Below are positions 2,345 through 62,811 of a stretch of DNA of 64,000 nucleotides, piece after piece. A program made the position numbers and the translations under genes. The stretch's first letter is position 1. Each line of letters opens with the position of its first letter. The notes under the pieces were generated by a model. That model was given only the letters and a program-made list of their open reading frames with translations, had not been told where the DNA came from and made no database searches. This stretch comes from Terfezia claveryi. Its lineage: Eukaryota > Ascomycota > Pezizomycetes > Pezizales > Pezizaceae. Location of the stretch: positions 248,001 to 312,000 of the forward strand of contig WHUX01000019.1 in the NCBI GenBank assembly GCA_015179025.1, given 5' to 3'.

Positions 2345-3593
2345 TGTAACGTCCCGCAGTGTGACCTCAATGGGACACACGTGCTGTGTAACCATAACTG
2401 GCCGCGGCCAGATGCAACAAGACTAACCGGATGCGACCGTGAGTCGCACAACCAGACTAAAGAACAAGCTGAATAGGTTTGGCTTTGGGATGAGAGAACC
2501 AACCACTCCCGCGGCTATCATATATCGCCATCGATCGGAACACGACAGCGCCAGCGGGAATCATTGCTGTCCCAAACTCGCCACTATCGTACATAGTTTT
2601 GCCATGCGACCTCCACTGTGACTGCTGTACTACTCCCGGACAAATGATAGAGTAATGGTGATCGCGTGCTCCCGTACCCGTTATGTACCTAAGTAGTCTG
2701 GCGGGCACACGAAATAGGGAAGTGTGACCTGCCTCCTATTATTGTCCCATCAATCCAGTCTCGGACCTTTTGAGAGTCTCGAGAACTCGTACTGTACATT
2801 CACAGTACCTACCAAGAGAACTTCAGGGGTTCGACACGAAATAAAAAAATTTGTCTTATCTCTGCTGAAGTTCATATATGTCGTGTGGTTCGGGATATAC
2901 TGGATTGGACATCCGCAATGCAAACCAGCGGGTATACGAAAATGCGGCACAAAAACACTGATCAAACATGGCTTCTAACAAACTATACTAAATCGCCCAC
3001 GGTCACTCAGCATCCCTAGTCCATCATACTCAACCGGGGCCCACCCATCCCTCCTAGATACGGAAACGTATATACAAATACATAATCAGAAAATACAAGG
3101 TCGATCAGAAAAGAAAAAAGGGCGTAAAGGTAGCAAGAAGCCGTCAAGCAACCAGCGTCATGAAGAACAAGTGGAAGAAAGAATCAACACAAATCTCACA
3201 GGCTCAACAAGATCAGGCTTAAAGTCATCATCATCAAACTGCACCACCTTCCCCCCCTCCTCCCCCTCCGATTTCCTAGTCATACATTGACCACTCGATA
3301 ATAGGTAATATATCAAACGACCCCCATACTTGACTTTCCTCCGTTTTATCCATTTGTAGACGCTGTAGAATGCCACCCAGCCCATTACTCCTCGAAAGCC
3401 ATCTCTGGGCGCCAAAGAAGCCCAGTATCTAATTTTTCCAGTTTTCCATCCCAGCCTCCGAATTTAGAGGAAGCGTGCCACATAGTAAAGCCCTAAACAT
3501 TAAATAAACACCAACAAAAGTCTGGAAAGGTAACAAACGAGATATATGAGCGAATGGTATAGGAGAAATTAGACCCTAGGTGAAGAAAATTTA
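2345..3593. other. Intergenic and 3' flank of the ssn6 gene
   Basis: No gene is supported. A degenerate micro-insertion core (AACCAGACTAA near 2450) and a variant TAGTCTGGCGGGCAC near 2694 lie here. An 85-codon minus-strand frame at 3158-3415 ends in acidic low complexity and falls where the 3' UTR of the neighbouring ssn6-like gene is expected, so I do not call it. Confidence 0.45.
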
Positions 3594-10765: not shown

Positions 10766-11287
10766 CATCATTTGCTTTTTTCGATCACAATCGCTCAACA
10801 TTGGAAAGTATCTTCAGGGTAACTATACCTCTTATTTTAGTATTTGATTGACTTAATCCCCACCATACATAGTAACAATTTCCACTTTGCTTCGGGTTTT
10901 CGTGTAACGTGACTACCCGGCCCCTCTCACAGCAGCCCATCATCAACGACTAAAGAGGCCGAGTGTTCTTTGGCATTGCTTACCCATTGCAGAGCAACTA
11001 ACGTAATAATGGGTTAGATGTAATATTTTATGCGAAGACTAGATATTGGCGCGGATAAATGATGATTTCCTGTTGAGGAACAGAGGTAGATTATGGTTTT
11101 AGCGTGGCGAAGACAATATTCTACCCGGTATTGATCCAGGCAGGTGGGGGCCACGACACAATCAGTTGCGGCAGATATATAATATAAAAGCAAATAGAGC
11201 TGCATCTCCAGCAAGCTCAAGTGGCGTTCCGTCCGACTGCAGATGCAGGAGTGGTTTGGGGAGAGGTGTTGGTAGTGGAGGGTGTTG

Positions 11288-11302
11288 TGCCAACCAGACT
11301 AA
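11288..11302 (+). mobile_element. Micro-insertion, 15 bp, 7-bp direct repeats
   Basis: TGCCAACCAGACTAA is bracketed by perfect GGTGTTG copies at 11,281-11,287 and 11,303-11,309. The insert matches the recurring core found at 14,428, 36,361, 36,984, 38,967 and 62,765. Confidence 0.75.
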
Positions 11303-12883
11303 GGTGTTGGGGCCCTGAGCCTTGTGATTTTCACAAGCCGTCATCCTGTGTCTATGCAGCAGATTCAGAAGTGAGAGAAATACGAACATGGCATGCCCCT
11401 TTGTAGTCAGCAACTTCTTCTGGTGGTCTTGGCGTCTCTATGCTTATTCTCGATCCCGTGCTGCCAAGACCGAATAATTGAATATGAGATCACAATGTTG
11501 CTTGTACCACCCCATCTCTTAGCTAGTGTCTGAGGCGCACGTGCGGTGCTATTCCCCGTGCATTCGGTTGGAGAGGGTGGTGAAACAAAAGCCGCACAGA
11601 TAGATGCCGTGCGCACGGTGGCGGGATGGACCGGCTGAACGTTTCATTTTTTCCAGGAACTGTATATCATTCTCAGGCTCGCTAAAGCGGTGGGCCTGTA
11701 TGATTGTACAACAGGAAATCGATATTTGGTGTAGAGGCCTCGGGTCCGAAAGGCGATCCGAATCTATGTAGCACGTAAGGCATAAGGATAAGTGCAACAA
11801 TTTTGTAACTACCAAGAAGTTATGAACTTTCTATTAGGGAGTATGTATGCGGAACCAGACTATGTATGCGGAGTCTGGAACCCTTAAATTATGGTTTAGA
11901 TTTATTTGACGATAATTGTCTAAAGAAAGATGGTGGGGCTATTGTCATTAGCTACGGTAGTATGAGGGCTGTGATGTTATTTGTGCATCTCCCCAACAAG
12001 CAGAAGGCTGTAAGAAAAAATCCCCCTCTCGTGAAGTGGGGCGAACGTTAGAGGTGGCCGGGGTTTGATGCTCCCTGATATGACAATACCTGTTCCCTTT
12101 TCATTTTCCTTATCTGCATTGCAGTCACGTTTTTCTCTTTTCTTCTCTTCTGGGGTACCACAGGTTTACGATAACTCTAACTCGATTCCTCCCATCATAG
12201 TATCCAAGAGTCGAGCAACGTATTACTTGCATCTGACAGCGCATCAGGATGATCGTAATCCCCGCCCCGTCCCTTACCCACACGCTCTAAGGGGATATCA
12301 TTGATATCCCCGCAAGCAACCAAGGCTGCGCAGGCACGGCCTTTTCATGTGTGACGGTAAGAATGTTTGTTTGGGCAGACTAGATAGATTGAATATATGG
12401 CCGTTGTAACGACCAAGGGGTTAGAGTGAAGGTGGAACTGGGGAAGGGACTTGAGCTTGGCAACTGTACTGTAGGTGCATGTATCCAAGAGGTGCATGCA
12501 TGGAAGCAACCATGTATATAATCATTCATTCTGCATGGGGCCTGAGACGTGTGAGAAGCGAGCTGTTGGTGCATGGACCAGTGTGGTAATGCGCGGTGGA
12601 AGACAATGATCCATGATAGGTGGGTTTCCATGGCTATTGTTGGTACAGGTGTTTAAGGCTTGATGCTTGTGATAAAGTAGACCACTGGTATTGGTTGGGT
12701 ATAAACTGCAATTCCAAATATAAAATCGGAGGAAAGAGGAAGTGGGAACAATTTAAATGTGGTCTATCGACGAAGACAATCACGATCATTTGAATGTTTG
12801 TATACCCAATGATCATGTGCAATGCACGCCACTACTTCTCCAATGCTTTTGTTAACACATCGATTAATGCCTTGTGACCCAAT

Positions 12884-13577: not shown

Positions 13578-14583
13578 GGAGATTCTGCGACCACGATTGT
13601 GGGGACGAGTATGCCATTACTCTTATCGGATTTTCCGCTAGAGCTCCAGTTGCTGTGAAGACTTTGATCAACAATTTCATATTTGGCCCAGGAAGCGTCA
13701 GGCCATCAGTTGAGTCTTAACACCCACCTTGACTCAACTCCCGCAGCGGAGAAGGCTAGGACCTCAACTCTTGTTGTTGGCCATAAGCCCCGGCTCTCAT
13801 AGTCTGGGGATTATGATTTCGAGCTGCAACTTGCCGTCGGGGAGCTGCATCCGTCTGCCTGCCTATAGCTCTACGTAACTCCATGCAGCTGATTTAGACT
13901 TTCTGCAATCGGAGACGGGTGGAAGAAATGATGCCCTGTCTCAGATACGTAATGTTGGTTCTGGCTGCTTCCTCTTTGATGTATTACTCTGAACCTGCCT
14001 TAGCACTTTTGGGTTAGTTTTGTTTTTGGGGAAATATGAGACTTAGTGAATCACAGTCGGGATTTTTGAGTGGACGATTTACAGATGTCCACTCATTTTC
14101 CATATGTGTTCATCTCCGAGAAGAATAATGATTCATCGTCCTGAAGCTTCTTTACCTATTTTCCCAAAATTCTCGATACGTATTATCTGGTTATCAACTT
14201 GGATATTGCCCAATCGGTAAGCTTATGAAATGAAACATGTGATCGTCATCTGACATTGACTCTTGATTAGACTTATGTACATGTAGTCAAACTCGTCGGC
14301 TTGTGCCAATCAGACTACTTACATATAACGTTCTTTATATTACTTCTGGTTTACTGCATATGATTAAAGCAAGATCTATATGATATATCTTTGCTGAAGC
14401 AGAAGGTTATTCTCTCTATGAGAGGTTCTGCCAACCAGACTAAAGGTTGTTATTAACTTGACAAACTGTACTGGCAGTAACTGACTGATTTAAACCTGAG
14501 TTCTTTGGAGACATGTTGAGTATGGTCATGTTCTCGTGACTGCTACATATGACCTTGCCAAGCCCCAAGCTAAGACTTGCTAC
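13578..14583. other. Gene-free flank left of the copia element
   Basis: No gene is seen. Before the copia insertion, the right part of this stretch must have been the immediate upstream region of the nicotinamide riboside kinase gene now at 20,091, because the 5-bp target duplication joins position 14,583 to 20,080. It contains one micro-insertion at 14,428. Confidence 0.6.
14428..14443 (+). mobile_element. Micro-insertion, 16 bp, short direct repeats
   Basis: CTGCCAACCAGACTAA is bracketed by AGGTT at 14,423-14,427 and 14,444-14,448. The core is a perfect match to the family; the flanks are only 5 bp, consistent with a decayed longer duplication. Confidence 0.6.
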
Positions 14584-15011
14584 TGTTGGAATGACCTTGT
14601 AGGAGTAGCAACACTAGCGAGCGGATAAGATAGCTAATGATCAACGAAGAGTCACTTCACTAGTATGAGAACGTATGAGCTGTACGAGAACGTATGAGTT
14701 GCTTATCACTTAACCTCTAAAGAAGAGGCAGTCAGGCCAGCTCTATATACACTTAAGGGATAATGCTAAAGGAGTATTGCTGGAAAGCAGGAAATGCTAG
14801 AGATACGTGAGTGAGTGTCGCAATAACATGAGTGACCGACATGACATCGGTGGCAGACATGACATATGTTAATGAATGTCATTGTATGACCTGAGTAGCC
14901 GCAATGACATGAGTGGCAGACATGACATATGTTAATGAATGTCATTGTATGACCTGAGTAGCCGCAATGACATGAGTGGCCGACATATGTGAACTCACGT
15001 GCTTTTCAACA
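14584..15011 (-). repeat. Left LTR (3' LTR of the element)
   Basis: It is identical to the right LTR except at 14,661 (T versus C) and 14,799 (A versus G). It contains an internal tandem duplication of about 63 bp (roughly 14,860-14,985), present in both LTRs and therefore older than this insertion. Confidence 0.97.
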
Positions 15012-15111
15012 CCCCTCCTCAGCAGATACTGCTGAATAGCAAGACGAACATGATTAGTCTCGTTAAAAACCTCAAAACCCAGTAGGAAAAAGCAGGTGAA
15101 AAGAGTGCTAA

Positions 15112-18100
15112 TCAAGATGTTCGCATTATTTGTTCCCTTAGAGTAAGAAAATGAGGCCGTGGCAGCGGCTTTGTGCAGATATCAGCTAAGTTGCTGTTAC
15201 CTGGTATCCATAAGACGTTGATTTTGCCAGTTTCCACAAGATCTCTGATGTAGTGGTAGGCAACGTCTATATGTTTGCTTTTGTCACTGATACGGGGATT
15301 GTCTGTAAGATCAATAGTCCCGTTATTGTCAGCATTTAAAGCAGAAGGAATCACAACATGGAGTTCTTTCAGTGTATTCTGCAACCAAATTAGCTGTTTG
15401 GAAGAGGTAGAAAGAGCGATGTATTCAGCCTCGACCGTAGAGGTTGAAACACAACGTTGCTTTACCGATCTCCAACAGATTGTATTGCCAGCAATCTGAA
15501 ATATGTTTCCCGTGGTGGATTTCCTGTCATTTCTATCACCAGCAAAGTCTGAGTCAGAATAGCCGATAAATTCACAGTAATGGGTTTCCTGTAGGTGAGT
15601 GTCAGATTTCTCGTTCCCTTAAGGTAACGAAGGGTCTGTTTTAACACCCCCATATGGATCTTGTGGGCTCTGACGAGAACTAAGAGAGAGAAGAAACGGT
15701 GAAGGCAAGATCAGGCCTGGTACCAATCACTAGGTACATAAGAGAGCCAATTATCTGCCTATAGTTAGAGGAATCAGCAAGGTCGTCTCCCTCACGGGCC
15801 TTTAGCAAATTCTTCAATCTGCTGGGATCCATGGGAAGAGAGACCGGGTTGCAATCCTGCAGTCCAAATTTTAGAGCAATTAGTCAATATATGCTTGCTG
15901 TGAGAGGGTAACACAGTCAATATGCCATTCGATCTGGATGCCCAGTAGCCAGCTTAGAGGACCGAGATCGCTGAGATTGAACTCCTCCTTAAGGGAATTT
16001 TTCAATTTTTCCCTTTCTAAGCTGTTGGGACCCGCAAGAGTGATATCGTCCACATATATGGTGATAATCACTTGTAGTTTGACATGTATTAGTATACATG
16101 GATCAAAGTTTGCTGTCACGTATCCAAGTGGTAAAAGGAAGCCGGTCAACCTCTGATACCATTGTCTCGGTGACTGCTTAAGGCCGTATATTGACCTGTG
16201 AAGACGTGCACATTGCCCTGGTTGTTCGTTAGCAGAAGGTCTTAGTTCTGCAAACCCAGGAGGAAGCTTCATATAGATTTCCTCGTTTAGAGAACCATAT
16301 AGAAAAGCTCCTTTAATATCAAGCTGATCAGGTTGCGGCCAGCTAAGAGAAACTGATAGAGCAATCAGTAATCTCAATGAATCATACCTCACAACAAGAG
16401 AGAAGATCTCGTCAAAATCCGTCCCCGGTTGCTGAGAAAACCCTTGAGCAACAAGCCTTGCTTTGTAGCGGCTTATGTTGCCTGCTGAATCCCTCTTAAT
16501 CTTGTAGACCCATTTGCAGCCTACGATATTGTGCCTTGGAGGAGGTAGGGGCACAACCGTCCAAACAGACTGATCCGTCAGAGTTTCAAGCTCTTCCTGC
16601 ATGGCCTTATACCATCGTGGAGAGTCTGCGCACTCGGTTGCTTGCTTGAACGTCCTAGGTTCAGTCTCATTAACCGCAAGAGCGGTTGCAAGCAATGTAT
16701 GCACATTAGTGGATTCAGTGGATTTGGTGGATTCAGTGGATTTGGTGGATTCAGTGGATTTGGTAGGCTCGAGTTGAGGTAATTTAGCTGATGTTTGCTC
16801 AGCTCGATTAGCTGGAAATTGCTCAGCTTGACTCGCTGGTATGTGCTCTAATTGCTCAGCTCGACTCGCTGGTATATGCTCAGCTCGATTCGCTGGTATG
16901 TGCTCTAATTGCTCAGCTCGACTCGCTGGTATATGCTCAGCTCGATTCGCTGGTATGTGCTCAGCGAATGTGCAGTTGGATGCCTTAACGGTAAATATAT
17001 GCTTATTAGCTAGCTGGACCCTATAAATGGACGGGGATTCTGTATAACCAACGAATATTGCTGTTTCAGCCCTTGGCTGGAGCTTGCTTCCAGGAAGCCT
17101 GCGTTCTACAGGTATATGGATGTAGCAGATGCTGCCAAAGGGCTTGAGGTGAGCAATAGAAGGTTGTACATTATGCAGCATCTCAAAGGGGGTTTTTCTC
17201 TGAGGAAGCTGAGAATGGGGTAAGCGATTACGGATGTAGACGGCGGCTAGACATGCTTCTGCCCAAAGGCGCGGGTCTGCAGAGCTGCCAGCTTCTGCAG
17301 AGATACCGTTAGCTGGGTTTAGGTCAATTAGCATGCTGCGGACCATTGTCTGTATTGTCCTATTATAGCGCTCTGGGACCCCATTTGACTGATGGGAATA
17401 TGGAGGTGTATAGATATGCTGAATCCCCTTAATTCTTAGATATTTGTCAGCTTCTATATACTCTCCACCATTGTCAGTAATCATGCTTAAGACAGTGGTA
17501 TTATACTGCCTTTCCATGAGGGTAATATATTCCTGAATGATCTGTTGAGCATCCGGAGATTTGTTCTTTAAGAAGTATATCCAACCCATCCTGGTAAAAT
17601 CATCAATAAAAGTAATGTAATATTGTGAGTTTCCGTAGGAAGGTATAGATTGCTTTCCACTCAGATCGCTGTATATCAGCTGGAAAGGGCGAGTGGATCT
17701 GCCTTGAGTAAGGCTCTGTGGGACTGCGTTCACGGATTTAGCCATAATACAAGATCTGCAGAAGAATTCAGCAGGCATAGGGGGTAGGAGCGATCCGTCC
17801 ATATATGCCTTGTGAGTCATTTTGCTCGAATGAGCTAGAGATCTGTGCCAAAAATCATAAGAATGTATTGCCTGCGTTTTGGGCTTTTTGGCTTGTTTAG
17901 TGGCTTCCGTTGCAGTTTCGAGGGCTCTTTTGGAGGAGGTTCCGGAGGCCTGATTAGAGGCAAGCAACGAGCTGTTTGTATGTTCGATAATAAAGGGGAG
18001 ATTGCCTTTGAATTCGGCCATAAATACAGGTTGCTCGGTTTCTTCCTCAGAAGTAATAGTAGAATTGCCTGAAAACATAGAATTGTCGGAAGACACAGAA

Positions 18101-19521
18101 TTGGCAGAACAACAAGCAGAACGTAACACAACAATCTTATTGCCATACGCTTTCATCATAAATCCCTTATTCCTTAATACATTCCATGAAACAAGCGAAT
18201 GACCTAGTAAAGGAACGTAAAGCATGGCAGTAAGACGAACGATTCTGTGAACATTATTTGGAAGAAGGCAATTCAGTAAGACTGAGCCAATTCCTTCCAC
18301 AGAGAGAGAGTTATTCCCTCCGACATTCACAGTTCCAGAACTCTGCTGTAAGTGCTCAAATCGTCCTATATCAGAGGTCATATGAGCTGTTGCACATGTA
18401 TCAAGCTTCCAGGAGTATGAATTTGTACTGACATGAGCGAGATCAACGTCCATGGCATCAGTAACAAGAGCGGTTGTAATAAGACCTTGGTTAGGTTGCT
18501 GGTTGTTGCCAGCATTGTCCTTGTTTGCCTTATCCTGCTTGCGAGCTTGATCTCGCTTGAGTTTTCGGCATTCTTGCCAGTTATGGCCGTTGGAGATTCC
18601 TTCATGTTTCTTGCAGTAAGTGCAGGTCTTCTCACTATTCTGCTCTTTTGTGCCCGAAGGGCGTTTTCGGTCTTTCTTAGGACCACGAGCCTGAGTTAAC
18701 AGAGCTGCGTTAGGTGGGTTAACTGAGAGATCCAATTGATTATTGGATGCGAGTCCCAGAAAATGATGTCTGACTTCTGTATATGTCAGATTAGCTTTGG
18801 TAGTCAAATTATCCACCGGATTGGGATACTCATGGCTTAAAGCCGCCAATAAGAAATCCCGCTTTACCTTATCTGCTTCTAGGAATTTTCTGAGCATTTG
18901 CCTATACTCATCAGGACCGGTTGCCATTTGATAGACCCTGTTCCATTGACTGTCAAATTTATCTAAAAATTCTGATATAGGCTTGCCTTTTTCAAGTTTC
19001 CCAGAGAAAAGAACACCGAGGCAAGCGACTTAGTGAACAAATGAAAAAGCAGTGTCTTTAAAACAAGTCTCTCTTAAGTACTTCCAAATATCATGAGGTG
19101 ATCTGTATTTAGACACCTTATTCAGAAAAGGGTTGCTAATAACTCGAATAAGGATTAGCATTGCCTGTTTTGAAAGAGACAAGAACCCCTCCTGTTCAAC
19201 TGAAGATGCATTTGGATCGGGATGAACACCATCAACAACGATATCCAATACATTTATGGTATAAAAAACCATGGTCATCTGTGCTGCCCAGTTCTCATAG
19301 TTCTTAAACCCCTCGAGAGGCTCAATACCATTGAGCTTAACTTCAGGGTGAAAGTCTTTTGAGAGAGCAAAAGACCTAGAACTTACAGCTGAAGGAAAGG
19401 GAGACATGATAGGAGGAAGAGAGATTGTGGTAGGAGTCGTTGCAGGGGCCGAAGTCGTTGCGAGTGCAACCCGATTTTGAGAGCTGCCAGCAACAATCGT
19501 TGCGGGTGATGTTTCTTCCAT
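15112..19521 (-). pseudogene. Copia gag-pol, broken by four frameshifts
   Basis: The frame opens at 19,521 (MEETSPATIV...) with a Gag capsid region of 163 codons ending near 19,030, where a one-base shift is needed to continue. The main frame (18,927-15,880) then holds a CCHC zinc knuckle (C102, C105, H115, C120 counted from 18,927), a protease with DTCATAHM in place of the usual D-S/T-G, an integrase with an HHCC finger and the D, D, E motifs YSDLSG, TDNGGEY and NGVPERYN, and an RT with the YVDD box. Between integrase and RT lie two tandem peptide repeats. RNase H follows in other frames, with shifts near 15,885, 15,682 and 15,580, and the last frame ends at 15,112. There is no long deletion; the damage is all single-base. 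Whether it is real decay or sequencing error cannot be told here. Confidence 0.9.
16690..16965 (-). repeat. Minisatellites inside copia pol
   Basis: 16,700-16,765 repeats an 18-bp unit encoding Ser-Thr-Glu-Ser-Thr-Lys. 16,800-16,965 repeats a unit of about 30-66 bp encoding variants of EHIPA(N/S)RAEQL. Both sit in the linker between integrase and reverse transcriptase, where length change is tolerated, and the unit lengths keep the frame. Confidence 0.85.
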
Positions 19522-19651
19522 GTTAAAGAAGATCGTTATAAAGTTCTCGTAGAGAGGAGTTCGTTATGGAGATAGAGGAGTTGTGGATGGAGTTCTCGTG
19601 TAGAGGAGTTGTGGTGAATACTATCTTGCACGTGCGCCGGGGGTCATAACC

Positions 19652-20079
19652 TGTTGGAATGACCTTGTAGGAGTAGCAACACTAGCGAGCGGATAAGATA
19701 GCTAATGATCAACGAAGAGTCACTTCACCAGTATGAGAACGTATGAGCTGTACGAGAACGTATGAGTTGCTTATCACTTAACCTCTAAAGAAGAGGCAGT
19801 CAGGCCAGCTCTATATACACTTAAGGGATAATGCTAAAGGAGTATTGCTGGAAAGCAGGAAATGCTGGAGATACGTGAGTGAGTGTCGCAATAACATGAG
19901 TGACCGACATGACATCGGTGGCAGACATGACATATGTTAATGAATGTCATTGTATGACCTGAGTAGCCGCAATGACATGAGTGGCAGACATGACATATGT
20001 TAATGAATGTCATTGTATGACCTGAGTAGCCGCAATGACATGAGTGGCCGACATATGTGAACTCACGTGCTTTTCAACA
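19652..20079 (-). repeat. Right LTR (5' LTR of the element)
   Basis: It carries the element's presumed promoter, directed leftward into gag. Its outer end is 11 bp from the ATG of the plus-strand nicotinamide riboside kinase gene, so that gene and the element are now arranged divergently around the LTR. Confidence 0.97.
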
Positions 20080-22205: not shown

Positions 22206-22687
22206 GGTGGGCCGAGGTGAGGTTGGCTTAAATGGTTTGAAATATTGGTGACGTCGTCTACTGTGAGGATCTTATGGTTAGCTAGTCTGGTTGTAGGCTA
22301 AAACTCAGTCTCGGCGCCTACTCTGACTAGCAGCAGGTTTCCAGTCGCCGCTAACGGTTTCAAATAAAATCTCTTTGCTTCGCCTGAACACGTGAGTAAG
22401 AAACCTATTAGGTAAATATACGGAGTCATTTATTATAAATAGATTAGGATCTGCTTTCATATCTCAAGCAGCACGGGTAATAAACAACACAGAAAAGGGA
22501 TATCTACAACGAAAGAATCCAAAGTTTACAACAAAAGCTAGAGAAGAACCAGACATATCCGCTCGGATGTCAAGTAAAGAGGGTAGAACAAAACAAAAGT
22601 ACACCCACCCTATCAGTGTATTAGATCGTGATTTCGTTTCCTTCTCTCGGTTTTACCCCAGCCTAGCACCTCCAACAACGAAGCTCA
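22206..22687. other. Intergenic; degenerate micro-insertion core
   Basis: This is the upstream region of the cyclotransferase and the 3' flank of the TMEM115-like gene. A TAGTCTGGTTG core without clear flanking repeats lies at about 22,275. Nothing else is seen. Confidence 0.5.
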
Positions 22688-23914: not shown

Positions 23915-26900
23915 GGTCGATCTGAATCGAGGCAGCTTGAGTGATGGGCGTTGTCTGGTAGATCGGAAGACAGCTTGTCAGTTGGTTGTCAGTGCTTCTA
24001 GGTTCACTCCGGCACTGTTCTTTATGTTGCTGGGGGCAGAAGCCGTAGTGATTAGGTAGTCTCGTGCCCGTGATTAGGCGGCCACCGAAAGGAAGCTTTC
24101 AGCGGTTGGGGGTGGCGTTTCCGCGAAAATTTCTCGACTGCTGTGGGATATAGGAGAGTAACGTAACGCCGCAACACAACCAGTCCGGCGATTAATATTG
24201 CTTGGGATTACGACGATTAGCCAGAAAATAGAAGAAAAAAAAAGCCCTGCACGCTCAGCCTGGAACTCCGCCGTGATCGCTGGGTATGCAAGGAAGCAGA
24301 TTTAGGTATGTGCCAGTACCGTAGTGCAGCAAGCATCGGCGGGGTAGGTAGGTACGGTAGAGTATATATGATATGCAAGGTAACAAATGTATGAATGTTA
24401 TGTAGCTATGCATATGCATAAAAACGGTTGATATACGAATGCACGGAGAGACGTTTAGAGAAGAAAGGTGGACGACAGGCTGGGTGTGCCAGCTGGGGTT
24501 TTCTTTGGACGGTCGAAAGGGCAACAGAGCAAGGGCCGCCGAATATAATGCTGGCCGGTCGGTCAGTTTCTGCTGTTCCTTTCACTCTCTCTTCTGGTGC
24601 GCGATTGGTTGCTGGTGCCTCCCCACAGGTGAGCCCGCCGGCCCTCTGCGTGCCTAATCGCGATTGATGTTAGTCCAGTGCCAGGGACAAAAAAAACCCC
24701 GTTATTGGTTTACTAGTCCCGAAACTGATTTCGAGGTTTTGCTTTCTTTTTTCCTTTGCTTGCCACCTCTCTTATTCTCCGTCCTCGCAGAGAAGTAGGG
24801 CCACAAAACGATTCTCAGCCCTGAGTCGATCAGTCAGCTGCAGACACTCATCGAGCCGTATCACATCGGCCGGAAATCCGCCGTGAGCTTGCAGGTGCCT
24901 AAGGCCGAACTGGCATTGGATGTACTGTGCCTCTACGAGTGGTGATTTCGACTGATTTGAAAGCTGCGAATGTGGTGGAGCATTGGGAGCATTGTTCACA
25001 ACAAACCTGCCCCACATAGCGCATTACGGGCGGGCGGGCAGTCAAGTCTGTACAGTAAACAGTACAAGTACAAAATACCTACTGTACCTACCTACCTACG
25101 TAGTCTTGTAGTCATGTGGTCTTGTATGCGTCTTTTGCCTGCATGGCCAGAAGGAACTCAGGGAAGCGATGGTGGCCACCCTTTCCGCATGGACAATCTA
25201 GTGCTCTTGTGAGGTTTCGATGGGGTTGGGCAAGCCTGTTCTCTGGGGTTTGCCGGCAGCACATACGGTACATGTACTTTACAGGGATGTGTTCTCCCTC
25301 CTCAGGACCCACGGCGGTGGAATACTGTCGGTTCGAGACGACGCAGCAGTCAAGACTGCTGATGATGACTTAGCCGGAAGGGTCCCAAGTCTAGGCTGTA
25401 GATTCCACATAGGAAATCTCAAGAGAAGTAGGTGTCTGCTTCAACGATTCATACCCATCCAGGCGATCTCCGCATGTGGATTCAATCAGCTGCAGAAGGA
25501 AGGAGGAACCTGGTACCCAGGCAGCAAAGGCAATCTCGACTCTCTGCTGTTCTTGTTTCATCCAACCTGTAGAGTATCATACCGAACTGCACTTTTGATT
25601 TGGGTCAGGGGACGGGACTGTGTTCGGGGGTAGGAAAGTACCGTAACTTACAGTACAATGCCAAGGCCGAGAAATGTGTAGTTAACTCTGCTCTAACTCT
25701 GCCTTCACTCTCCGTGGAATGCTTATAACCTGCGTGCAACTTCGCCCAAACAACTGGGTCAGGGCCTTGAGATATGCCCAAATGCAGATGAATGAAGCCG
25801 GGGCAAATGGTGACCTGGCCGCTGGGTGTATAGCAGTGCAGTGCCCATGGCCGGCCGCGTCCTGATGAACGCTGAGCTGAGTTCTGGAATCACCATATTA
25901 CACCTTAGGGTACCCATATGTAAGGTAGCTGTCGCAGCACACCACCCTTCGGCGTGTGCGACTCCAGTCAGAGACCTCCAGGTCCTACTCCAGGTCCTAC
26001 TCCAGGCCCCGGTTTGAACAGTCGGACGCTGCTTGCTTGTTGTCACTGTCCAAGTACCGGGCTTTACACATCTACACCCTCTGGGCGAGGCATTGGCGCC
26101 CCCTCGCACCCTGTCCTAGTATACTATAGTTCTGGGACTGTCTTGCCTGCCCCTGCTTCGCATTCACCCACAAGCTGTCTCTTTGAAGCGTACCCACAAG
26201 CTGTCATACTGTCAACGGCCCGCTACTCACAAACCGAGTCTCAGTCCCGCAGCCTTAGGCCCAGTGCTCTCGTCCGCGATTTTCAAAGGTCAAAGGTAGT
26301 CAGTCAGTCAGTCAGTCGGTTCCGTCTCTCCAGGCCAACCGAACCGCTCGACTCTAGGGGTGCTTGCGAGTACGGTGCACGTCTGCATCAGGGAGCTGCA
26401 GTTTATCGGAGAACTGTACTCTCTCCCTGCACTGCAAGAGGTTTGACACTCAATCGCTTGCCCTCCTTTCAAGCTGCTCTATACTGCTGAAGCCCGCTCT
26501 CGCGACCCCAGGCTTGTACTGCAACCCACGAAAAAAAACGCCCGCTTGGGGGAGCCCACTGCTAGCTCTGGGATTCTCTGCTCTCTGCTCTCTGCCCTCT
26601 GCTCTCTGTTGTGTGCAAGGCTCGTTGCCCCCTCTCATTAACCCGAGCCCGCCTCACAATCACAGCTCTCCCGCTGTGCTGTTTTGTGCTTTTCATTGCT
26701 TGGTCACCGCAACCAAACTACACACTCCCGAGATCCCAACTTGTTCGTTCGGCACGGCTGCAATAAATCTTTAGCTAGCATCCCAATATCCAATCCCGAT
26801 AGTTCTATTACCCTAACCCCCCCCCCCCCCCCCCAAACTCTCCCCCTCCCCCTCCCAGTGAGTGGGAAAAAGGAGCAGGAATCGAGAGTAGGCTTTTGCT

Positions 26901-29668: not shown

Positions 29669-30277
29669 CACGACGAGAAAAAAAGTGAACTTGTTTATCA
29701 GTCCATCACCCCTACCAGTGACGCGGGACGTCTTCTCGGCCCTTATTCTTGACATATATTTATACTTCTACCACGGATCTTACTGTCACTGATGCTCTTT
29801 TTGGCACAAAATATCCTACTTCTCTACTGCGCTATCGCATCAACTCGGCATTGGCATCGTCATCATCCTGGCCTTATTCACCATACTACTTACTACTAAA
29901 ATCCTTCGGTTTCTAATCTTCTTAACTTGTGTTCTAGGGTTTGGGATTATAATCTTTTTTTTTTTACCAGGTGTTATTTTTTTTTTGTTTGTGCGTTCCC
30001 ATTACTGTGCCACACAGAGAGAGGCAGAGAAAGAAAGAAAGAATGAAAGCGTGTGTATGTGTATGTGTGTCATGGTACACGAAGACGTCTCTTTTTTGTT
30101 TACCCTCCCACTTTCGAGGCCGCTTACAACTTTTTGGAAGGGTGGAGGTCTTTGCAGGATGTGTTCGGTTCCTTGCTTTTTTGCTAATCCATCGAGTTGT
30201 TAAGATTAGGTTGCATATAGTTCTATTATTGCGTACAATTTTTTTTTTTTTTTTTTTTTTTTTTGGGGGGGGGTTAC
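29669..30277. other. Intergenic with simple repeats
   Basis: This is the 3' flank of the TBL1-like gene. It contains GT-rich repeats near 30,045-30,070 and a T24 run followed by nine G at about 30,240-30,273, directly adjoining the pogo element's target TA. No gene is seen. Confidence 0.6.
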
Positions 30278-30279
30278 TA

Positions 30280-32564
30280 CCATACTTCACGGGGATGCCG
30301 ATCATCACTGGGAAACCGATCAATTTTTCGGCTATCTACCGGACATACGAGATCTAGTTACATAGACCTTAGAAGAAATATGGGAGGTCAGGGAGGGCCC
30401 TGGGGTAGGGGAGGGGGGTGTCTGAGGCCGTTCTGACCCAGCTGGGAGCCCTGTAGCAGGTGTAGCGAGTGTAATAGTAGATAAAATAGAACTAGACGAG
30501 GTAATAGAAATAGTTTCCAAATCACTGTCCCATTCATCAAGCTCTTCCCCACTGATACTCTCTTCCCCATCCGATGAACAAATAGTGACAAATGAAACTG
30601 CCTTACGTTTTCCAGATTGCTTGCGGAAGGGATGGGGGCTGGGTTGTAGAGGTTTGCCGAGCTGTTTAGAGGACTTCTGCAGCCGTTTCTTCTTTTTTGC
30701 TTCCATTGCCTCTCGTTCAATATATAACTCCTTGAGGGTCTTTCCATCCATAACCCGACCATGAGACCTTCCTAGCTCCCTCCGATCAACTTTAGCTTCA
30801 AGCTTCTGTGCCTCTTGCCACTGCTGTAGTGTTCTCCGCTCTAGCTCCCGGTCCTTATCTGCAGCAATACCAAACTTCTCAAGTTGCTGAATTAAGTCTG
30901 CCAAATCTGCACGATCAAGGTCCGCTTCTTTGGATTTTAGTCGAAGAGTAGCCTGTCTTACTCGTCGATGAAGCTCGGCTGTATTACGAGGTGTAGGGGG
31001 TTCTGATGGTGGGGCAGGTGCACGGGCTCTTGGCAGAGCTTGTCCATGCGTTAACTTGTCTAAGACATGTCTTGAATTAAATGGAATGAGACCTGCTCCT
31101 CGCCATGCACTGAGGATATTCTTCTTAGTATATGTTGTAGTTCGTGCTATTATAAGCATAGGAAGAAAGTTGCCTTTGGTGACTGCCACATTCCCAAACC
31201 GAACAAGACGATCAACCTGTACCCCATAAGCTTTCTGTAGTGGTGAAAATAATCCGACATCGAGTGGTTGAAGTAGATGAGTAGAGTGTGCTGGTAAACA
31301 GTAGGCAATGATGTTAACACTAAGGCAGAATTCAACAAACTCAACTGTAATATGAGATCCATGACCATCCACGATTAGCAGTCTCCATTCTCCACCCATC
31401 ACTATTTCTTTTGTTACCTCATGAAAATGTTTAATCCATTCCATCCCCAACATATGACTAGTCCAACCTTTTTTCGAGTAAGTAAACTTCCAGCCATCAC
31501 AATCCACTTCCGGATTTTTCAAAGATTGATACCAGCCCATATAATGTCCTGCACCTTTATATATAATTAAAGGAGGTAGTACAATGCCTTCTCCAGATAT
31601 TGCTTCTACCACTGTAATCATCTCTCGATTTCCATCTGTTGCTAGTTTACCAGTCATACCTCGACCACGTCTTAAGCAAATAACCTTAGCTCGATCTGAA
31701 ATCCCTTGCCTAAATCCCTTCTCATCCATATTGTAGGTTGTAGCATCGGTGATTTGGTAAAGCCGCTTAAGCTGTAAAAGCTTATTGAAGTGATCTCGGA
31801 TAATTTCAGGATTGCTAGCCTTGATTCTTTTTTTGTCAAACTGGCTGCTGAGCTTTGAAACAAGAAAGGGGTAACGATCCAGAAAGCGAGTAATCCAATT
31901 TTTCCCTACTGCAGATTTTTCATTCCACTCGGTACCTTTTAATAAGGCAACACCCTCCTTCACATGTAAAATTCGAGGAGGGAATCCCCACTCCTCTAAT
32001 TTTAAAATCCATCGTATAATTGCCTTCTCTTCTGCTGGTGTACACAACTGTTGTACAACATGCCCCTTTACACGGGATTCTGCACCATTTAACCGCCCAT
32101 GTAATGTAGCATAGGGAAGTCCAAAGGCTGCTGCTGTCTTCCGGATTGATGTGTATTTTCTCTGTTCAAATGCCAAAATTGCGCGCCGAATGTGCAGCTC
32201 TCGTTGAGCCTCTGAAACTTGCTTGCGTTGCTTTAGCCTTCCCATTGCTCGTTCCCGGCTTGCACTGGTCCCACATTAGCTTATACATTCCACTTGGTCG
32301 GTTTTCTAAACCTCATATAAAGAGTAGATAAATACCGGACAATTTTTTCCCAGCGCTCAAACTATGTCTTAGATACCCTAAAATGTGTAGGATCCCTCGG
32401 AGTTGATGCTGCAAGGACTGCTGATTCTAATGTTACCGCTGGTATTGAAATCCGTCGCGAACTGATGTTGTTGTAGCCTCGGAATTACCCCGCAATGCTG
32501 CGCCACTGATCGGCCTGTGGCTGATCGGCATCCCCGTGATGATCGGCATCCCCGTGAAGTATGG
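30280..32564 (-). mobile_element. Intact pogo/Fot1-type DNA transposon, 2,285 bp
   Basis: Terminal inverted repeats begin CCATACTTCACGGGGATGCC at 30,280 and, inverted, end at 32,564. The first 29 bp are identical, and similarity continues to about 44 bp. TA flanks both ends (30,278-30,279 and 32,565-32,566), the target of Tc1/mariner/pogo elements. The subterminal regions contain short tandem copies of GATCGGCATCCCCGTGA on the right and a related pair on the left, possible transposase-binding sites. One uninterrupted transposase gene fills the interior. Intact TIRs, the duplication and the open frame suggest a recently active copy. Confidence 0.95.
30332..32245 (-). CDS. Pogo/Fot1 transposase (HTH-psq, CENP-B-like, DDE_1)
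   Basis: It cuts and pastes its own element at TA dinucleotides in the nucleus. The 637 aa are uninterrupted. A pipsqueak-type helix-turn-helix lies at about 15-55 (IRKTAAAFGLPYATLHGRL), a CENP-B/Tc5-type second DNA-binding domain at about 68-130, and the DDE_1 catalytic domain at about 165-370. The acids are D174 in YNMDEKGF, D293 in LLIVDGHGSH and D329 in LLQPLDVGLF, giving the DD35D spacing of pogo elements. The C-terminal part is charged and probably coiled (about 420-540), then Ser/Pro-rich. The ATG at 32,245 precedes the first HTH by a few residues. All three catalytic residues are present, so the enzyme may be functional. Confidence 0.95.
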   Translation of the reverse strand: MGRLKQRKQVSEAQRELHIRRAILAFEQRKYTSIRKTAAAFGLPYATLHGRLNGAESRVKGHVVQQLCTPAEEKAIIRWILKLEEWGFPPRILHVKEGVALLKGTEWNEKSAVGKNWITRFLDRYPFLVSKLSSQFDKKRIKASNPEIIRDHFNKLLQLKRLYQITDATTYNMDEKGFRQGISDRAKVICLRRGRGMTGKLATDGNREMITVVEAISGEGIVLPPLIIYKGAGHYMGWYQSLKNPEVDCDGWKFTYSKKGWTSHMLGMEWIKHFHEVTKEIVMGGEWRLLIVDGHGSHITVEFVEFCLSVNIIAYCLPAHSTHLLQPLDVGLFSPLQKAYGVQVDRLVRFGNVAVTKGNFLPMLIIARTTTYTKKNILSAWRGAGLIPFNSRHVLDKLTHGQALPRARAPAPPSEPPTPRNTAELHRRVRQATLRLKSKEADLDRADLADLIQQLEKFGIAADKDRELERRTLQQWQEAQKLEAKVDRRELGRSHGRVMDGKTLKELYIEREAMEAKKKKRLQKSSKQLGKPLQPSPHPFRKQSGKRKAVSFVTICSSDGEESISGEELDEWDSDLETISITSSSSILSTITLATPATGLPAGSERPQTPPSPTPGPSLTSHISSKVYVTRSRMSGR

Positions 32565-32566
32565 TA

Positions 32567-33225
32567 ATATGTGCGAGGGGTAGGTTGAAACGATGTGGCA
32601 TGGGATGGGATGGGCTAGGCTATAGGGGTTTTTCTCACTTCTGGGCGTATGTTTGGATACCAAAGAAGATGGAGGAGGTGAGGGAAAACATATTAGTGGG
32701 CGAAATGGCATCTGGGAAATATATACAGCATATTACGTCAGGTCTGATAGCGGTTACCCTGAGTTTTATCACGGACCACGATGCGAAGGGCAGTGGAATT
32801 GCTACGATGGGGCAAAATATCATCTACCACTCGTAACCAATTTGAAACCCCATACATTTCATTTCATCCTGTGTAGAAACTAGCTAAGTTCATGAATGAA
32901 TGAGAGTAAGCTGAGATGCCTGTGAACAAAATGCATGGCAATGAAACTAAGTAGGTAGGTACATAGATGTACATTTTTACTCTTAAAAGAAAAGGCCAGG
33001 ACATAAAAATACAGTGTCGGTCGGGTGGGAGCGACGGCCCGATGTTGTGAGCTGTTGCTTTGCTGGTAGGTAGCAATATGCCAGTTGGTATCATAGTGAG
33101 ACTGACGCTGTAGTGTCGGCATGAACTTGACCACTTACTCTCCATCATCCAGCCTCTCATCCCCTATCTCATTTTACAGTCATCCTCCACAAGACACAAC
33201 TTACAAGACACAATAGTAGCGTGCT
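32567..33225. other. Intergenic between pogo element and ies2
   Basis: No gene is seen. The short frames on both strands have no domain; the right end is the 3' flank of the Ies2 gene. Confidence 0.55.
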
Positions 33226-36351: not shown

Positions 36352-36360
36352 GGGTTTATC

Positions 36361-36375
36361 GTGCCAACCAGACTA
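36361..36375 (+). mobile_element. Micro-insertion, 15 bp, 9-bp direct repeats
   Basis: GTGCCAACCAGACTA is bracketed by perfect GGGTTTATC copies at 36,352-36,360 and 36,376-36,384. This is one of the cleanest members. Confidence 0.85.
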
Positions 36376-36589
36376 GGGTTTATCAGGAACCCATACTTAG
36401 GGGCAATGATTCGATGGGTCACGGGACAAGTAAACATGACCTAACAGAGTAAATATTATTTATTTTAGTTACTAGAACTAGTTACCCAACTCCAATGTTG
36501 AAAAATACTTCCCTTCTCGCTGACTCATGTTTTTTCCATCGACTTCCTTTTCTAGTAGTTAGTTACGCTCGGAGCGCTCGGGTCCTGGC

Positions 36590-36668
36590 ATGAGACTAGT
36601 ACTGTAGTCTACCACACTCTAGGTACGAGGGTCTGATCGAGACTAACCACCCTTAGTCTGGTTGGCGC
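36590..36668. repeat. Cluster of degenerate micro-insertion sequences
   Basis: Three family-like pieces lie together: GGCATGAGACTA (about 36,589-36,600), a longer piece ending TACGAGGG...CGAGACTA (about 36,605-36,646) that matches the reverse complement of the 59,501 insert, and an inverted core TAGTCTGGTTGGC (36,654-36,666) with imperfect AACCACCCT/AACCTTCCCT flanks. The flanks are eroded, so these may be older insertions, partly nested. Confidence 0.5.
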
Positions 36669-36983
36669 AACCTTCCCTTTTCCGAAAACTCAACCACACT
36701 TCCACTAAGAAAATACTTAGATTAGCAATTCAATTCAGTTGCACCCGACCTCGTAGAAGTAGGGGTAGATATATAGCCCCCGTCTATCAATAGTGAAATA
36801 ATTTCTGAAAAAAACACTGCCCGAAATAAAATAATAATCCTATTATACAGACTACCCTCTCAATCTAGCCGCGACTTCCATTTCCAATCTCTCTTTTGCA
36901 TACGGCTCCTTGCTTATCACCCCAATCATATCCCCCCCTGAAAAATCATGCTCGAATATCGCAAGTGTGGAGGCATATCCTAG

Positions 36984-36998
36984 GGGCCAACCAGACTA
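36984..36998 (+). mobile_element. Micro-insertion, 15 bp, 7-bp direct repeats
   Basis: GGGCCAACCAGACTA is bracketed by perfect ATCCTAG copies at 36,977-36,983 and 36,999-37,005. Confidence 0.75.
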
Positions 36999-37093
36999 AT
37001 CCTAGAGATGGGACCGGAAACAGGAGGGCATGTTGCCTTATCTTTGGAACAGCCAGGAGTGCATGGAGCTGCGGACGATAGCAACAGCTGGGA

Positions 37094-38790: not shown

Positions 38791-38966
38791 CGCTATTAGC
38801 CACACCTTCAACTTTCAATTTTCCTGAAATCTTGGATTTTATTTCGTTACTATTGTGGCGAGGCTTGCCAAGTGGCTCAAAATTGTGTTTCATCAAGACT
38901 TTTGCCCACGGACTGTAGCTGCAGGTGTGAGTACCTTACTACGACAGCTTTGATTGACGGTGAATG

Positions 38967-38998
38967 TAGTCTGGTTGGCACAAGCCCCTCGACAGACT
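38967..38998 (-). mobile_element. Longest core-type micro-insertion, 32 bp, 10-bp direct repeats
   Basis: The insert begins TAGTCTGGTTGGCACAAGCC and ends CGACAGACT. It is bracketed by perfect ACGGTGAATG copies at 38,957-38,966 and 38,999-39,008. Counting the next A, the ends form a 7-bp inverted repeat TAGTCTG...CAGACTA. This copy may show more of the parent element than the 12-16 bp copies do. Confidence 0.85.
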
Positions 38999-39296
38999 AC
39001 GGTGAATGGCGGGCTGGAAGGACAAAAAGAAGAGATTAGACAGCCACATATGCCTGATGGTGTTGTGAGTTTTAGGGAGATGGTCTGTCATTCTATTGTC
39101 ATACGGCATTATATGGTTGGGTTTGATATATCCACAGGCGCGCCTGCGAGAGTGCAGGACCGAGTGGCAATATGACTAATATATCGAGGGTCACGTTTAC
39201 TTGTGATTTCGAATGGTGTTGAACATATGTCCGACAGTATAGCTTAACGAAGCCATCGCCCACAATTACACATGTGTCAAGCGGTTTCGAACATGA

Positions 39297-42651: not shown

Positions 42652-43576
42652 TCTCGCTTTTCAGCCAACCTGCAAAAAAAAAATGTGGTCTGTTCCATTT
42701 TATAGCACTGGTATCTATGTATTACGAAAATGATCGCAAAATTGGAAATATGGATCTCTAGTTATTTTTTTCTGGGTTTTCATTGGACCTTTTTTGTGTT
42801 GCTGTCATGGGGGATTGAGGGGGAGGCGGGGGAGTAGGGTGTGGCTAATATACATGTAGCTGATAGAATTTCTTGTTGAAATATGCGGTTTCTTCTTTCG
42901 TTGTTGATTTTTTTTGGCTAATTATATTGGTATTTTTTTCTTGTGTTTGGCCGTTGTTGGTCTGCTGCCTTCTAGCCTTCTGCCATCTACATGTTATCTG
43001 CTTCGTGAGTTCAGCTTATCAATATCGGGGATTTCTCCGTCCTTTAATCCGCTTTTTTGTTCTCTTTATATATACCGTTTCCCTCTCACCGGATCAGAAC
43101 TTCCCCGGCCTATTCCTAGTCTGGTTGCCCAATCCCCTCCTTTGTATCATACTATCAGCTCTCGGATAAGGTTGAAAAAAGACGGTCAAGGATGTAGATC
43201 TAAAATGGCATTGAATCATATCCTACCGAGGACAAATAATATTCTAATCACGGGAGTCGCTTCGTTTCCAGTTACCCTGAAAATATCGGCCCTGCCAAGC
43301 TTAAGGATAACTGCGAAATCTTGGCAGAGTTCGCTTGGAACAAGCAGGAAAAAAAGTTCGATTCTCATGAAAAAACCCCCACCACTCGGTGTACCCGCGA
43401 TCCGCTGTAGCCTTCATTCTTTCGGCTTTTGGGGCTCGGCATTTCCAACGTCTGCTTGTTTACCATTGACCCTTAGCTGTGCATCTCTCCCCCGCATTCC
43501 CCGCATACAATCTTGGGCTCGAGGTCTGTACCGAAGGACAGGTTTGGGGCTCCAAAACCATCAACAAGCTGGAACG
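42652..43576. other. Intergenic between mannosyltransferase and rrg9
   Basis: Open reading continues in frame upstream of the rrg9 start to about 42,914, but lacks protein-like features until the ATG at 43,577. A degenerate TAGTCTGGTTG core lies at about 43,118. Confidence 0.5.
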
Positions 43577-46052: not shown

Positions 46053-46054
46053 TA

Positions 46055-47860
46055 CAGTTTTTGACCTAGTACCGATCCGTGATGGTGAAACGATCCATGT
46101 CAACTACCCCTGCCAGACACATATCCCGAGATACTACGCTGGCTAGATATCCTCTACAGACCGGGCAAATTGTTTCCTACACTCTTGAATATGCTCTACA
46201 ATATGCGCACACTAGGTAGTTGAATAACTCATGTGAAGCTATCATATGCACCAATCCACCTCAAAAAGGATGAAATTGCCCCCCCCTCCCTCAGTGTGAC
46301 CCCTTCACCCACAGATATAATGAACTAACAAGCCTACATAGCGCCAGTACCTTAACTTAGCAGCTATATTTATGTTAGGATACAATATATCGGCATAGTG
46401 CTATATAAAAAGTTATTATTGTTTGGTACCTAACATGCATAATTCAGCCATTTCGAGCTTTTGGACCATGTCCGCCAGTTTTTCAGTATTTTGATCCTTC
46501 TTGACCTTTCGTATCTTCTTCACCACTCATTCTGTACCACTCCTACACTCACTATACCCTGTGTATCCTGTTATCCCGTAGGCCCGGTAACTTAGGTCTA
46601 TTTACTCCATACTATTGATTAGATAACTGAGCAACCTGGCTGCAAGAATAGTATACCTTTGGCAACATGACAACGGCGGGAGTAGATATGAGGTCAATAA
46701 AGGTACACTTCACCTAAAATAGTTCGGAGATATTGAAATAGCTAGAGATATGATATGGATATATGCAAATGATATCTTGAGCTCTATATCCTATAGCAGA
46801 AATAGGATATTGTAGCTATTTAGCGGAACCTAAAGCAGCTATATATAAGGAATGAGCCAGACCAGTACAAAACAGCCTCGAAAGCCTTTCAGGAGCCATA
46901 TATGGATGAAAATCCACATACCTAGATAGATATTGTATGCTAGACCAACTAGGTAGTTATGAGCCATGATTAAAATATTACATGAACTGCTATATAAGGC
47001 AAATGCGGTTGCTATGATAGACAGAGACCTGCAGACTGCAATAGACCGAGACCTCCAGACTGCAATAGACAAAGTCTCTAGATTGCAATAAGCAGAGGCC
47101 TCTAGACTACAATAGATAGAGGTTTCCTGAGCGAATCTAGAAGTATAGGCTATGGACTTCCAATACCCCCCCTTAGCACATACAGGAGCTGTGGATGTAA
47201 ATGAGTATTGACCTGGTTAAAAAATCTTCAAGAAACCTTATATATATATATGTTTTATATAAGGAAAAATATAAGGCAAAATGATCATTGAGCAACCTAA
47301 TTAAGCCTGGTGTGTAGGATAGAAGATAGAAGGTGAGGATGTGTAGGGTATAAAGGATATAGGAGTTGTGCAAATAGATTGGTAAAGAGGCTGCAGAAGA
47401 TATGAAAGGTCGAGAAGGATCAAAATACTGAAAAGCCTGCGGACATGGTCCAAAAGCTCGAAATGGCTGAATTATGCATGTTAGGTACTAAACAATAATG
47501 ACTTTTTATATAGCACTATACCAATATATTGTATCCTAACATAAATATAGATGCTAAGTTAAGGTGCTAGCACTATGTAGACTTGTTAGTTCATTATATC
47601 TGTGGGTGAAGGGGTCACACTGAGGAGGGGGGAGCAATTTCATCCTTTTCGAGGTGGATTGGTGCATATGATAGCTTCACATGAGTTATTCAACTACCTA
47701 GTGTGCGCATATTGTAGAGCATATTCAAGAGTGTCAGGAAACAATTTGCCCGGTCTGTAGAGGATGTCTAGCCAGCGTAGTATCTCGGGATATGTGTCAT
47801 GGCAGGGGTAGTTGACATGGATCGTTTCACCATCACGGATCGGTACTAGGTCAAAAACTG
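46055..47860. mobile_element. TA-flanked foldback element, 1,806 bp, arms of about 470 bp
   Basis: 46,055 to about 46,530 is repeated, inverted, at about 47,385-47,860 with a few percent mismatch and small indels; weaker similarity extends to about 46,590. The outer ends read CAGTTTTTGACCTAGTACCG and TA flanks both (46,053-46,054 and 47,861-47,862), a mariner-like end and target. The middle of about 850 bp has no open frame and carries a tandem repeat. It is probably non-autonomous. The long arms could fold into a large hairpin, and read-through RNA would be double-stranded. Confidence 0.9.
47010..47135 (+). repeat. Tandem repeat of about 28 bp inside the long-TIR element
   Basis: Four to five diverged copies of a unit like GACTGCAATAGACCGAGACC follow each other. 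This is the only structured part of the element's interior. Confidence 0.75.
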
Positions 47861-47862
47861 TA

Positions 47863-62570: not shown

Positions 62571-62764
62571 GAAATGAAACTTAATTCGGTTGCCGTGAGA
62601 TAAGGCAGAATATATTGAAGGTGCCCTTCAATATCGGCCTCGCGATTCAGGGGAAGATGGGACAACAAAGAAAAGAATGCCCACTGAATAAACATGAATG
62701 ACAAGAAACTGTTGGGTATATATGGCCATGCTATGGGATCTGCACTGACTGAGCAACCATCGTG

Positions 62765-62776
62765 GCCAACCAGACT
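62765..62776 (+). mobile_element. Shortest clear micro-insertion, 12 bp, 9-bp direct repeats
   Basis: GCCAACCAGACT is bracketed by perfect ACCATCGTG copies at 62,756-62,764 and 62,777-62,785. It lies about 440 bp upstream of the prm1 ATG. Confidence 0.85.
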
Positions 62777-62811
62777 ACCATCGTGTCTAGGTCGGCAGAT
62801 TGTGAGACTGA

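Follow-up and report, generated by a model that had tools for sequence, protein, structure and literature searches.

Terminal remains of a rare 8–9 kb DNA transposon across the Terfezia claveryi genome, most likely excision scars

Excision products of P elements retain the terminal 16–17 bp of the element. In these elements the 5′ strand is cut 17 nt inside the ends, which leaves long 3′ single-strand extensions (PMC7776569). Because that cut falls inside the inverted repeat, the donor flanks keep matching tails. AcademH, the helicase-encoding Academ lineage of animals and fungi, was reportedly defined by Kojima in 2020. Low-copy fungal DNA transposons of this lineage carry a DEAD/Helicase_C helicase and have been reported from Ascomycota (PMC10799480); none of the titles and abstract openings that were listed named AcademH excision scars. 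In the hAT superfamily (Ac/Ds) excision followed by end-joining repair likewise leaves a scar where the element had been; the Ds footprints shown in one report have an altered target duplication and keep no element-end sequence (PMC1978519). Excision repair is ordinarily untidy, as in rice, where 8 of 94 excisions were perfect, with clean duplications (PMC4423477). Excision of the Mutator-like element (MULE) Muta1 in yeast was mostly precise where duplications flanked the element (PMC5225508).

The short inserts described here, from the desert truffle T. claveryi (Pezizaceae), can be compared with all of these systems. In our judgement they are probably the excision scars of a low-copy 8–9 kb cut-and-paste transposon that carries a DUF6589 gene and a gene for a RecQ-type helicase. 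The window, by which we mean the whole 64-kb stretch of DNA that was analysed (C101:248001-312000), holds seven exact copies of the 12-mer CCAACCAGACTA. An exact word count over the assembly (72.6 Mb, 794 contigs) gave 4,088 copies of this word against 34 of its reversed-word control, and 2,885 copies of the 15-mer GTGCCAACCAGACTA against none of the corresponding control. The focal site (Table 1) is a one-armed scar of the 15-bp class.

Table 1. Inserts and end-word copies in the window, with their flanking repeats
Feature	Positions	Strand	Description
Focal site	36352..36384	+	9-bp repeat GGGTTTATC at 36352-36360, 15-bp insert GTGCCAACCAGACTA at 36361-36375, GGGTTTATC at 36376-36384
29-bp insert, 11273-11301	11264..11310	+	TAG and right arm of the GGGTGTTG subfamily; exact repeats AGGTGTTGG
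10-bp insert AACCAGACTA, 11853-11862	11844..11871	+	exact 9-bp repeats TGTATGCGG
31-bp insert CTCTCTATGAGAGGTTCTGCCAACCAGACTA, 14412-14442	14403..14451	+	9-bp repeats AAGGTTATT / AAGGTTGTT, 1 mismatch
13-bp insert TAGTCTCGTGCCC, 24057-24069, variant-end subfamily	24048..24078	+	exact repeats GTGATTAGG
13-bp insert GCCAACCAGACTA, 36986-36998	36977..37007	+	repeats ATCCTAGGG / ATCCTAGAG, 1 mismatch
33-bp two-ended insert TAGTCTGGTTGGCACAAGCCCCTCGACAGACTA, 38967-38999	38958..39008	+	exact repeats CGGTGAATG
12-bp insert CCAACCAGACTA, 62766-62777	62757..62786	+	repeats CCATCGTGG / CCATCGTGT, 1 mismatch
End-word copy	36654..36665	-	weak 9-bp repeat only: 1 mismatch, 38-bp insert
11-bp end word	2449..2459	+	no recognisable 9-bp repeats
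11-bp end word	22283..22293	-	no recognisable repeats
11-bp end word	43117..43127	-	no recognisable repeats

The window also contains a Ty1/copia element (14583-20054) whose direct repeats (14583-14882 and 19651-19950) are 99% alike and whose adjoining repeats of about 100 bp are identical, with a minus-strand pol ORF at 15880-18927 bearing RVT_2, rve and SH3 domains. A Pogo-type transposon lies at 30275-32569, with 48-bp inverted repeats (92% complementary) and a minus-strand ORF (30332-32245) encoding DDE_1 and a Tc5-type HTH, and a large near-perfect inverted repeat with arms of about 470 bp and a centre of 869 nt occupies 46053-47862.

The repeats around the inserts were counted in a sample of 107 copies of the 12-mer, made of the 7 in the window and 100 from stretches of contigs C1 and C2 that had been picked for containing listed 12-mers, a perfect palindrome being counted once per strand. 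Exact 9-bp direct repeats enclosed an AGACTA-ending insert at 38 of the 107 copies, against a mean of 0.79 (maximum 4) in 200 permutations of the flanks; when up to one mismatch was allowed, the count rose to 55 against 2.09 (maximum 6). In the window by itself, 46 sites were tested and five distinct AGACTA-ending inserts had exact 9-bp repeats, compared with a mean of 0.29 (maximum 4) for shuffled 6-mers of equal composition (mean of 30 sites). The duplication is 9 bp long and fixed, since 30 exact repeats out of 38 end at 9 bp when they are followed outward from the fixed border (the 8 longer ones being about as many as chance would give) and a 7-base seed also gave a peak at 9 (29 of 46 repeats; 5 were 7 bp and 6 were 8 bp long). 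No 9-bp repeat was found at the other 52 of the 107 copies, even with one mismatch. Trimming of their repeats could not be demonstrated: when shortened repeats were looked for on the left, the signal was weak at k = 5 (5 against 1.02 permuted, maximum 5) and at k = 4 (7 against 3.65), and gave 1, 1 and 0 at k = 6–8 against 0.37, 0.17 and 0.10.

Two observations concern the choice of target. At the position of the duplication next to the AGACTA border, only 1 of 35 sampled scar sites had a T, a weak target preference. On C1 the short inserts were clustered, with 13 neighbour pairs less than 200 bp apart among 76 copies, some of them the two ends of one palindrome, against 0.99 pairs (maximum 5) if placement were uniform. 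Re-insertion nearby or a preference for certain targets would be consistent with such clustering.

An earlier note on the window had described a family of mobile insertions with a common core. The family is real, both by the number of words (4,088 against 34) and by the exact repeats (38 of 107 against 0.79), and the comparison of flanking repeats with a control, which the note had proposed for the whole genome, returned a clear excess over permuted flanks in the 107 sampled copies. Its range of 7–10 bp for the repeats has to be replaced by 9 bp, the longer matches fitting chance extension. The site at 11,288, for which 7-bp repeats had been read, is a 29-bp insert with 9-bp repeats, that at 14,428, credited with 5-bp flanks, is a 31-bp insert whose 9-bp repeats differ at one base, and the 10-bp insert at 11,853, with its exact 9-bp repeats, had been overlooked. 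One of two proposed variant-end sites stands (24,057, with a 13-bp insert and exact 9-bp repeats), and at the other, 59,501, the repeat was not found. Cores listed as lacking clear flanks do lack them at 2449, 22283 and 43117; the one at 36654 has the weak repeat given in Table 1.

The anatomy of the inserts was examined in 57 distinct cases with exact 9-bp repeats, drawn from the sampled copies and including variant ends. One arm was present in 53 and two arms in 4. Bases of a second arm were absent altogether from 35 of the 53 one-armed inserts, 14 had 1–2 such bases, which chance could match, and 4 had 3–5. The lengths of the one-armed inserts were bimodal, with 33 at 7–16 bp (10 of them at exactly 15) and 17 at 27–36 bp; a single insert measured 21 bp and two were longer. 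Members of the longer class consist of the 15-bp core followed by a subfamily-specific stretch able to form a small hairpin. A perfect subterminal stem of 4–7 bp with a loop of 3–5, at about arm positions 18–35, was found in all nine of nine hand-picked arms; its length was reached by only 2–5 of 2,000 shuffles for three of them and by 20–297 of 2,000 for the remaining six, and the whole single-strand DNA folds of six arms were no better than those of shuffles (z from -0.03 to -1.17).

Two-armed palindromes were rarer, numbering 46 genome-wide under a strict pattern (at most 30 bases between two 15-bp ends). When 40 two-armed copies were examined with their flanks, a set that includes one locus twice and one locus (L106) that is rather two one-armed scars sharing repeats, 18 had exact 9-bp repeats and 2 had repeats with one mismatch; palindromic copies of 30–54 bp with exact repeats occur. 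Nine of 19 distinct two-armed inserts correspond to the left and right arms of one known past-hairpin end, overlapping by 0–5 nt, while the remaining ten require 2–9 nt of filler or an unknown subfamily, and the same centres recur at different sites in two instances (L098/L101 and L108/L113). Pairs of TAGTC...GACTA with a 9-bp repeat (0–1 mismatch) were never more than 91 bp apart in the 264 kb of the window and 10-kb stretches and in a number of short loci, spans of up to 9.9 kb being covered. Repeated scars in a single 9-mer were seen at L106, at L014 8440-8500 and near 2755 of L140, in one example as three copies of the repeat with a 15-bp left arm between the first and second and a right arm between the second and third.

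Insertion was documented by an empty site. At locus L010 a 34-bp insert, CCTCCAACAGGAGGGTGTTGTGCCAACCAGACTA, lies between ACAGAGGCT repeats, and in a paralogue that lies only some hundreds of bases off and is 92% alike over 124 columns, the flanks are joined with a single ACAGAGGCT. This one clear empty paralogue shows that the scars are insertions. The earlier note had asked for empty sites in other strains; the check, run on paralogues, thus gave at least one clear case among the matches listed, together with a weaker one at L013, where a diverged paralogue (80%) spans the junction without the insert and two more are gapped at the repeat itself. C457 holds a candidate empty paralogue of the window site at 38,967, whose alignment runs through the junction (108 bases for 112) without space for the insert; a search of it for the 20-base junction word, with up to three mismatches allowed, found nothing. 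The matches listed for the other seven window sites included no junction-spanning paralogue. Three further loci considered as empty sites (L107, L046 and L073) were set aside, their matches being tandem repeats or arm-to-arm.

A parent element was sought end to end via convergent long arms. The first full-length copy, C135:449886-459000, is 9,115 bp long, has the arm sequence at its start and end, and possesses 120-bp perfect inverted repeats and an exact 9-bp duplication, CGTTCTGGT; the ends of the parent begin TAGTCTGGTTGGCAC. A second full-length copy with the same ends occupies C235:51350-59448 (8,099 bp). Its right flank led us to expect GGCGTTGTG as the duplication on the left, and GGCGTTATG was found exactly there, a match at 8 of 9 bases. 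With its inverted repeats and fixed 9-bp duplication (in C135, with C235 as second copy), the parent has the marks of a cut-and-paste DNA transposon. The end sequence, the 9-bp duplication and several subfamily tags are common to scars and parent, and for this reason the inserts are the remains of insertions by this 8–9 kb transposon family. The short inserts are not free-standing mini-elements; each is one, sometimes two, of the ends of an 8–9 kb DNA transposon. The two-ended window insert at 38967-38999, for instance, joins 25 bp that match one C135 arm to 7 bp from the opposite arm, with a single base in between.

Few ends extend beyond the subterminal hairpin. A strict pattern recovered 13 genome-wide against 2,885 exact 15-bp ends, the 13 being a lower bound because more bases are prescribed in it than in the 15-mer and ends with changes in those bases are missed; they include both ends of the C135 element and both of the C235 element. 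From the geometry of C135, parent ends were also predicted beside copies of DUF6589. An arm was present in two of the five stretches, on C235 and C95, of which only that on C235 was newly found, the C95 arm having been listed beforehand; the stretches on C300, C62 and C268 held no arm, and a past-hairpin end of C300 is located away from the predicted stretch. The C235 and C95 arms have two other subfamily tags, both of which also occur among the scars. The C135 element itself contains three short inserts flanked by exact repeats; one is 12 bp long, one 15 bp and one about 15 bp. A 15-bp scar is located in the DUF6589 region of that parent (L140 near 7038-7063) and, judging by relatives, may be intronic. 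End pairs on C29 (470 bp), C150 (834 bp, within a larger inverted repeat) and C179 (6.8 kb) were discarded as elements, as they had no matching 9-bp duplication.

Both end-to-end copies carry DUF6589 and RecQ-like sequence in genes that look broken. A Pfam scan of 10 of the 27 listed ORFs of the C135 element (L140) identified a RecQ-family helicase in pieces (DEAD, Helicase_C and Zn-binding) and, on the opposite strand, broken pieces of DUF6589. Genome-wide, DUF6589 gave 43 exon-level matches, many with stops. Relatives of the helicase lie within 2–3 kb of DUF6589 on C95 and C235 and about 8–9 kb from it on C300 and C242, with further relatives on C656 and C734. The DUF6589 protein, of which the literature searched made no mention, is a candidate transposase. 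Its conserved acids are D416, E437 and E579 (P0002 numbering); structure models were poor (pLDDT 53 and 59), and structural searches with them returned no convincing match.

Set against the known systems, the Terfezia family would resemble the P superfamily (Drosophila; THAP9) in behaviour. The likeness lies in the proposed cut deep inside the end, and scar sizes of 15 and 27–36 bp fit tails of the P kind. The P superfamily, however, has an 8-bp duplication, whereas the Terfezia scars and both end-to-end elements have one of 9 bp; the two scar sizes (15 and about 31), the RecQ-like helicase gene and the thousands of end words are further differences. The scanned ORFs (10 of 27 of the C135 element, and 3 relatives) matched DUF6589, the helicase and weak, chance-like domains, and no THAP or P-type transposase. 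By analogy, then, the process appears to work like P-element excision, yet the element is not a P element. With AcademH it has in common a helicase gene inside the transposon, and it may belong to that lineage. The Ds footprints shown in PMC1978519 are without element ends, unlike the Terfezia scars with their arms and intact duplications.

A Mutator-like origin had been raised in the earlier note, and MULEs do have the 9-bp target duplication in common with the Terfezia family. The MULE domain (PF10551) was nevertheless matched by none of the 10 of 27 scanned C135-element ORFs, and a genome search placed none of its matches on C135 or C235. That search gave 21 matches; seven of eight MULE loci, each of about 3.3 kb, had no end words, and in the eighth (L054, with its extension L117) the word sits inside long repetitive inverted arms and not at an element end, while a longer stretch around a second MULE locus (L119) has different inverted repeats. 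L117 1-7001 (C773:253500-260500) is foldback-like, with a MULE-domain ORF between two long inverted arms, each about 2 kb and made up of repeats. The same note had more generally proposed transposase-type insertion with target-site duplication, and in this it was right. Among its guesses at an origin, elements shrunk to their termini are possible, and MITEs and truncated retroposons found no support, the source being an 8–9 kb DNA transposon.

Excision is the most economical reading of how the inserts arose. As no site was observed both full, with the whole element, and scarred, excision is our inference. We propose that the 3′ ends of the transposon would be cut flush with the target duplication, and the other, non-transferred strand at a point some 15 or some 31 nt into the element, close to where the subterminal hairpin has its 3′ side. 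Because of this inner cut, each donor flank would keep a 3′ tail of element sequence, with the double-strand border exactly at the duplication. In the usual repair, ligation would connect one tail with the recessed 5′ end on the opposite flank and fill-in would follow, while the second tail would be clipped at the single/double-strand border, giving duplication, one arm and intact duplication; now and then both tails would be joined, with a two-armed palindrome as the product. Every jump would in this way leave behind an oriented scar that can be read. The size class of about 31 would represent a tail up to the hairpin and that of 15 a shorter tail to the end of the conserved core, produced either by two cuts or by one cut and trimming, and the RecQ-like helicase might, speculatively, expose the hairpin. 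The neatness of the Terfezia scars is unusual, since rice excisions are rarely clean and the Ds footprints shown in the cited report lack element ends; with ordinary excision repair so much messier, neat scars require the tail model or another mechanism.

The main rival to excision is an abortive or one-ended insertion, in which an end joined to a 9-bp staggered target breaks 15–31 nt in, or only a short end fragment integrates, and the site is repaired; excision is unnecessary in either case. Such an event accounts for a single arm, an exact 9-bp duplication, the scarcity of full copies and most one-armed cases, and terminal fragments bound by transposase could be protected at 15 or about 31 bp. 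We nevertheless regard it as rather unlikely: standard concerted integration needs a second strand-transfer event to make the duplication, and the two-armed inserts with exact or one-mismatch repeats (20 of 40 examined) require both ends at one site. It is very unlikely that the inserts are free-standing ultra-short MITEs transposing as units of 15–54 bp. The palindromic 30–54 bp copies with exact repeats and the recurring two-armed centres would be expected of such units, but a MITE is a two-ended non-autonomous unit with many near-identical copies, whereas 53 of the 57 exact-repeat inserts are one-ended with lengths that vary from copy to copy, and the subfamily tags match full-length or past-hairpin ends.

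Perfect palindromes of 30–51 bp are expected to be unstable, and one could imagine that a two-armed scar or mini-element came first and lost one arm later through replication slippage. We consider this highly improbable, as slippage would not end exactly at the border of the duplication, and the one-armed inserts retain no second-arm base in 35 of 53 cases and a chance-level 1–2 bases in 14 more. Retroposition of a small RNA that is constant at its 3′ end and truncated to differing extents at its 5′ end, which the fixed right end and variable left end of the inserts might recall, is scarcely credible; it is largely refuted by the existence of a full-length element with inverted ends and a 9-bp duplication, and the fixed duplication length and the two-armed palindromes also speak against it.

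Returning to excision, we put forward a more specific version only tentatively: a self-excising transposon with a hairpin-defined break, a RecQ-type helicase that exposes the end, DUF6589 as an unrecognised transposase, long 3′ donor tails and ligation of one tail. If this version is true, one-tail ligation closes the donor site, and an oriented, subfamily-tagged scar is therefore kept for each jump, so that thousands of jumps would stand recorded against 13 past-hairpin ends (strict pattern). Overall, the feature is unusual but most likely has an ordinary kind of cause, the terminal remains spread genome-wide being excision scars of a rare 8–9 kb transposon. What is new is that so many end words can be read where so few past-hairpin ends were found, together with the end processing that this implies.

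The history of excision is normally hard to read, most transposons leaving a few bases or messy deletions. The scars in T. claveryi are recognisable singly, can be sorted by subfamily and oriented, and apparently number in the thousands; they would let the number, place and relative age of the jumps of a low-copy transposon be measured. For a fungal genome they also constitute a large source of short insertions, each made of an arm and the duplicated target, and they link DUF6589 and a RecQ helicase with a mobile element whose ends are processed in an unusual way.
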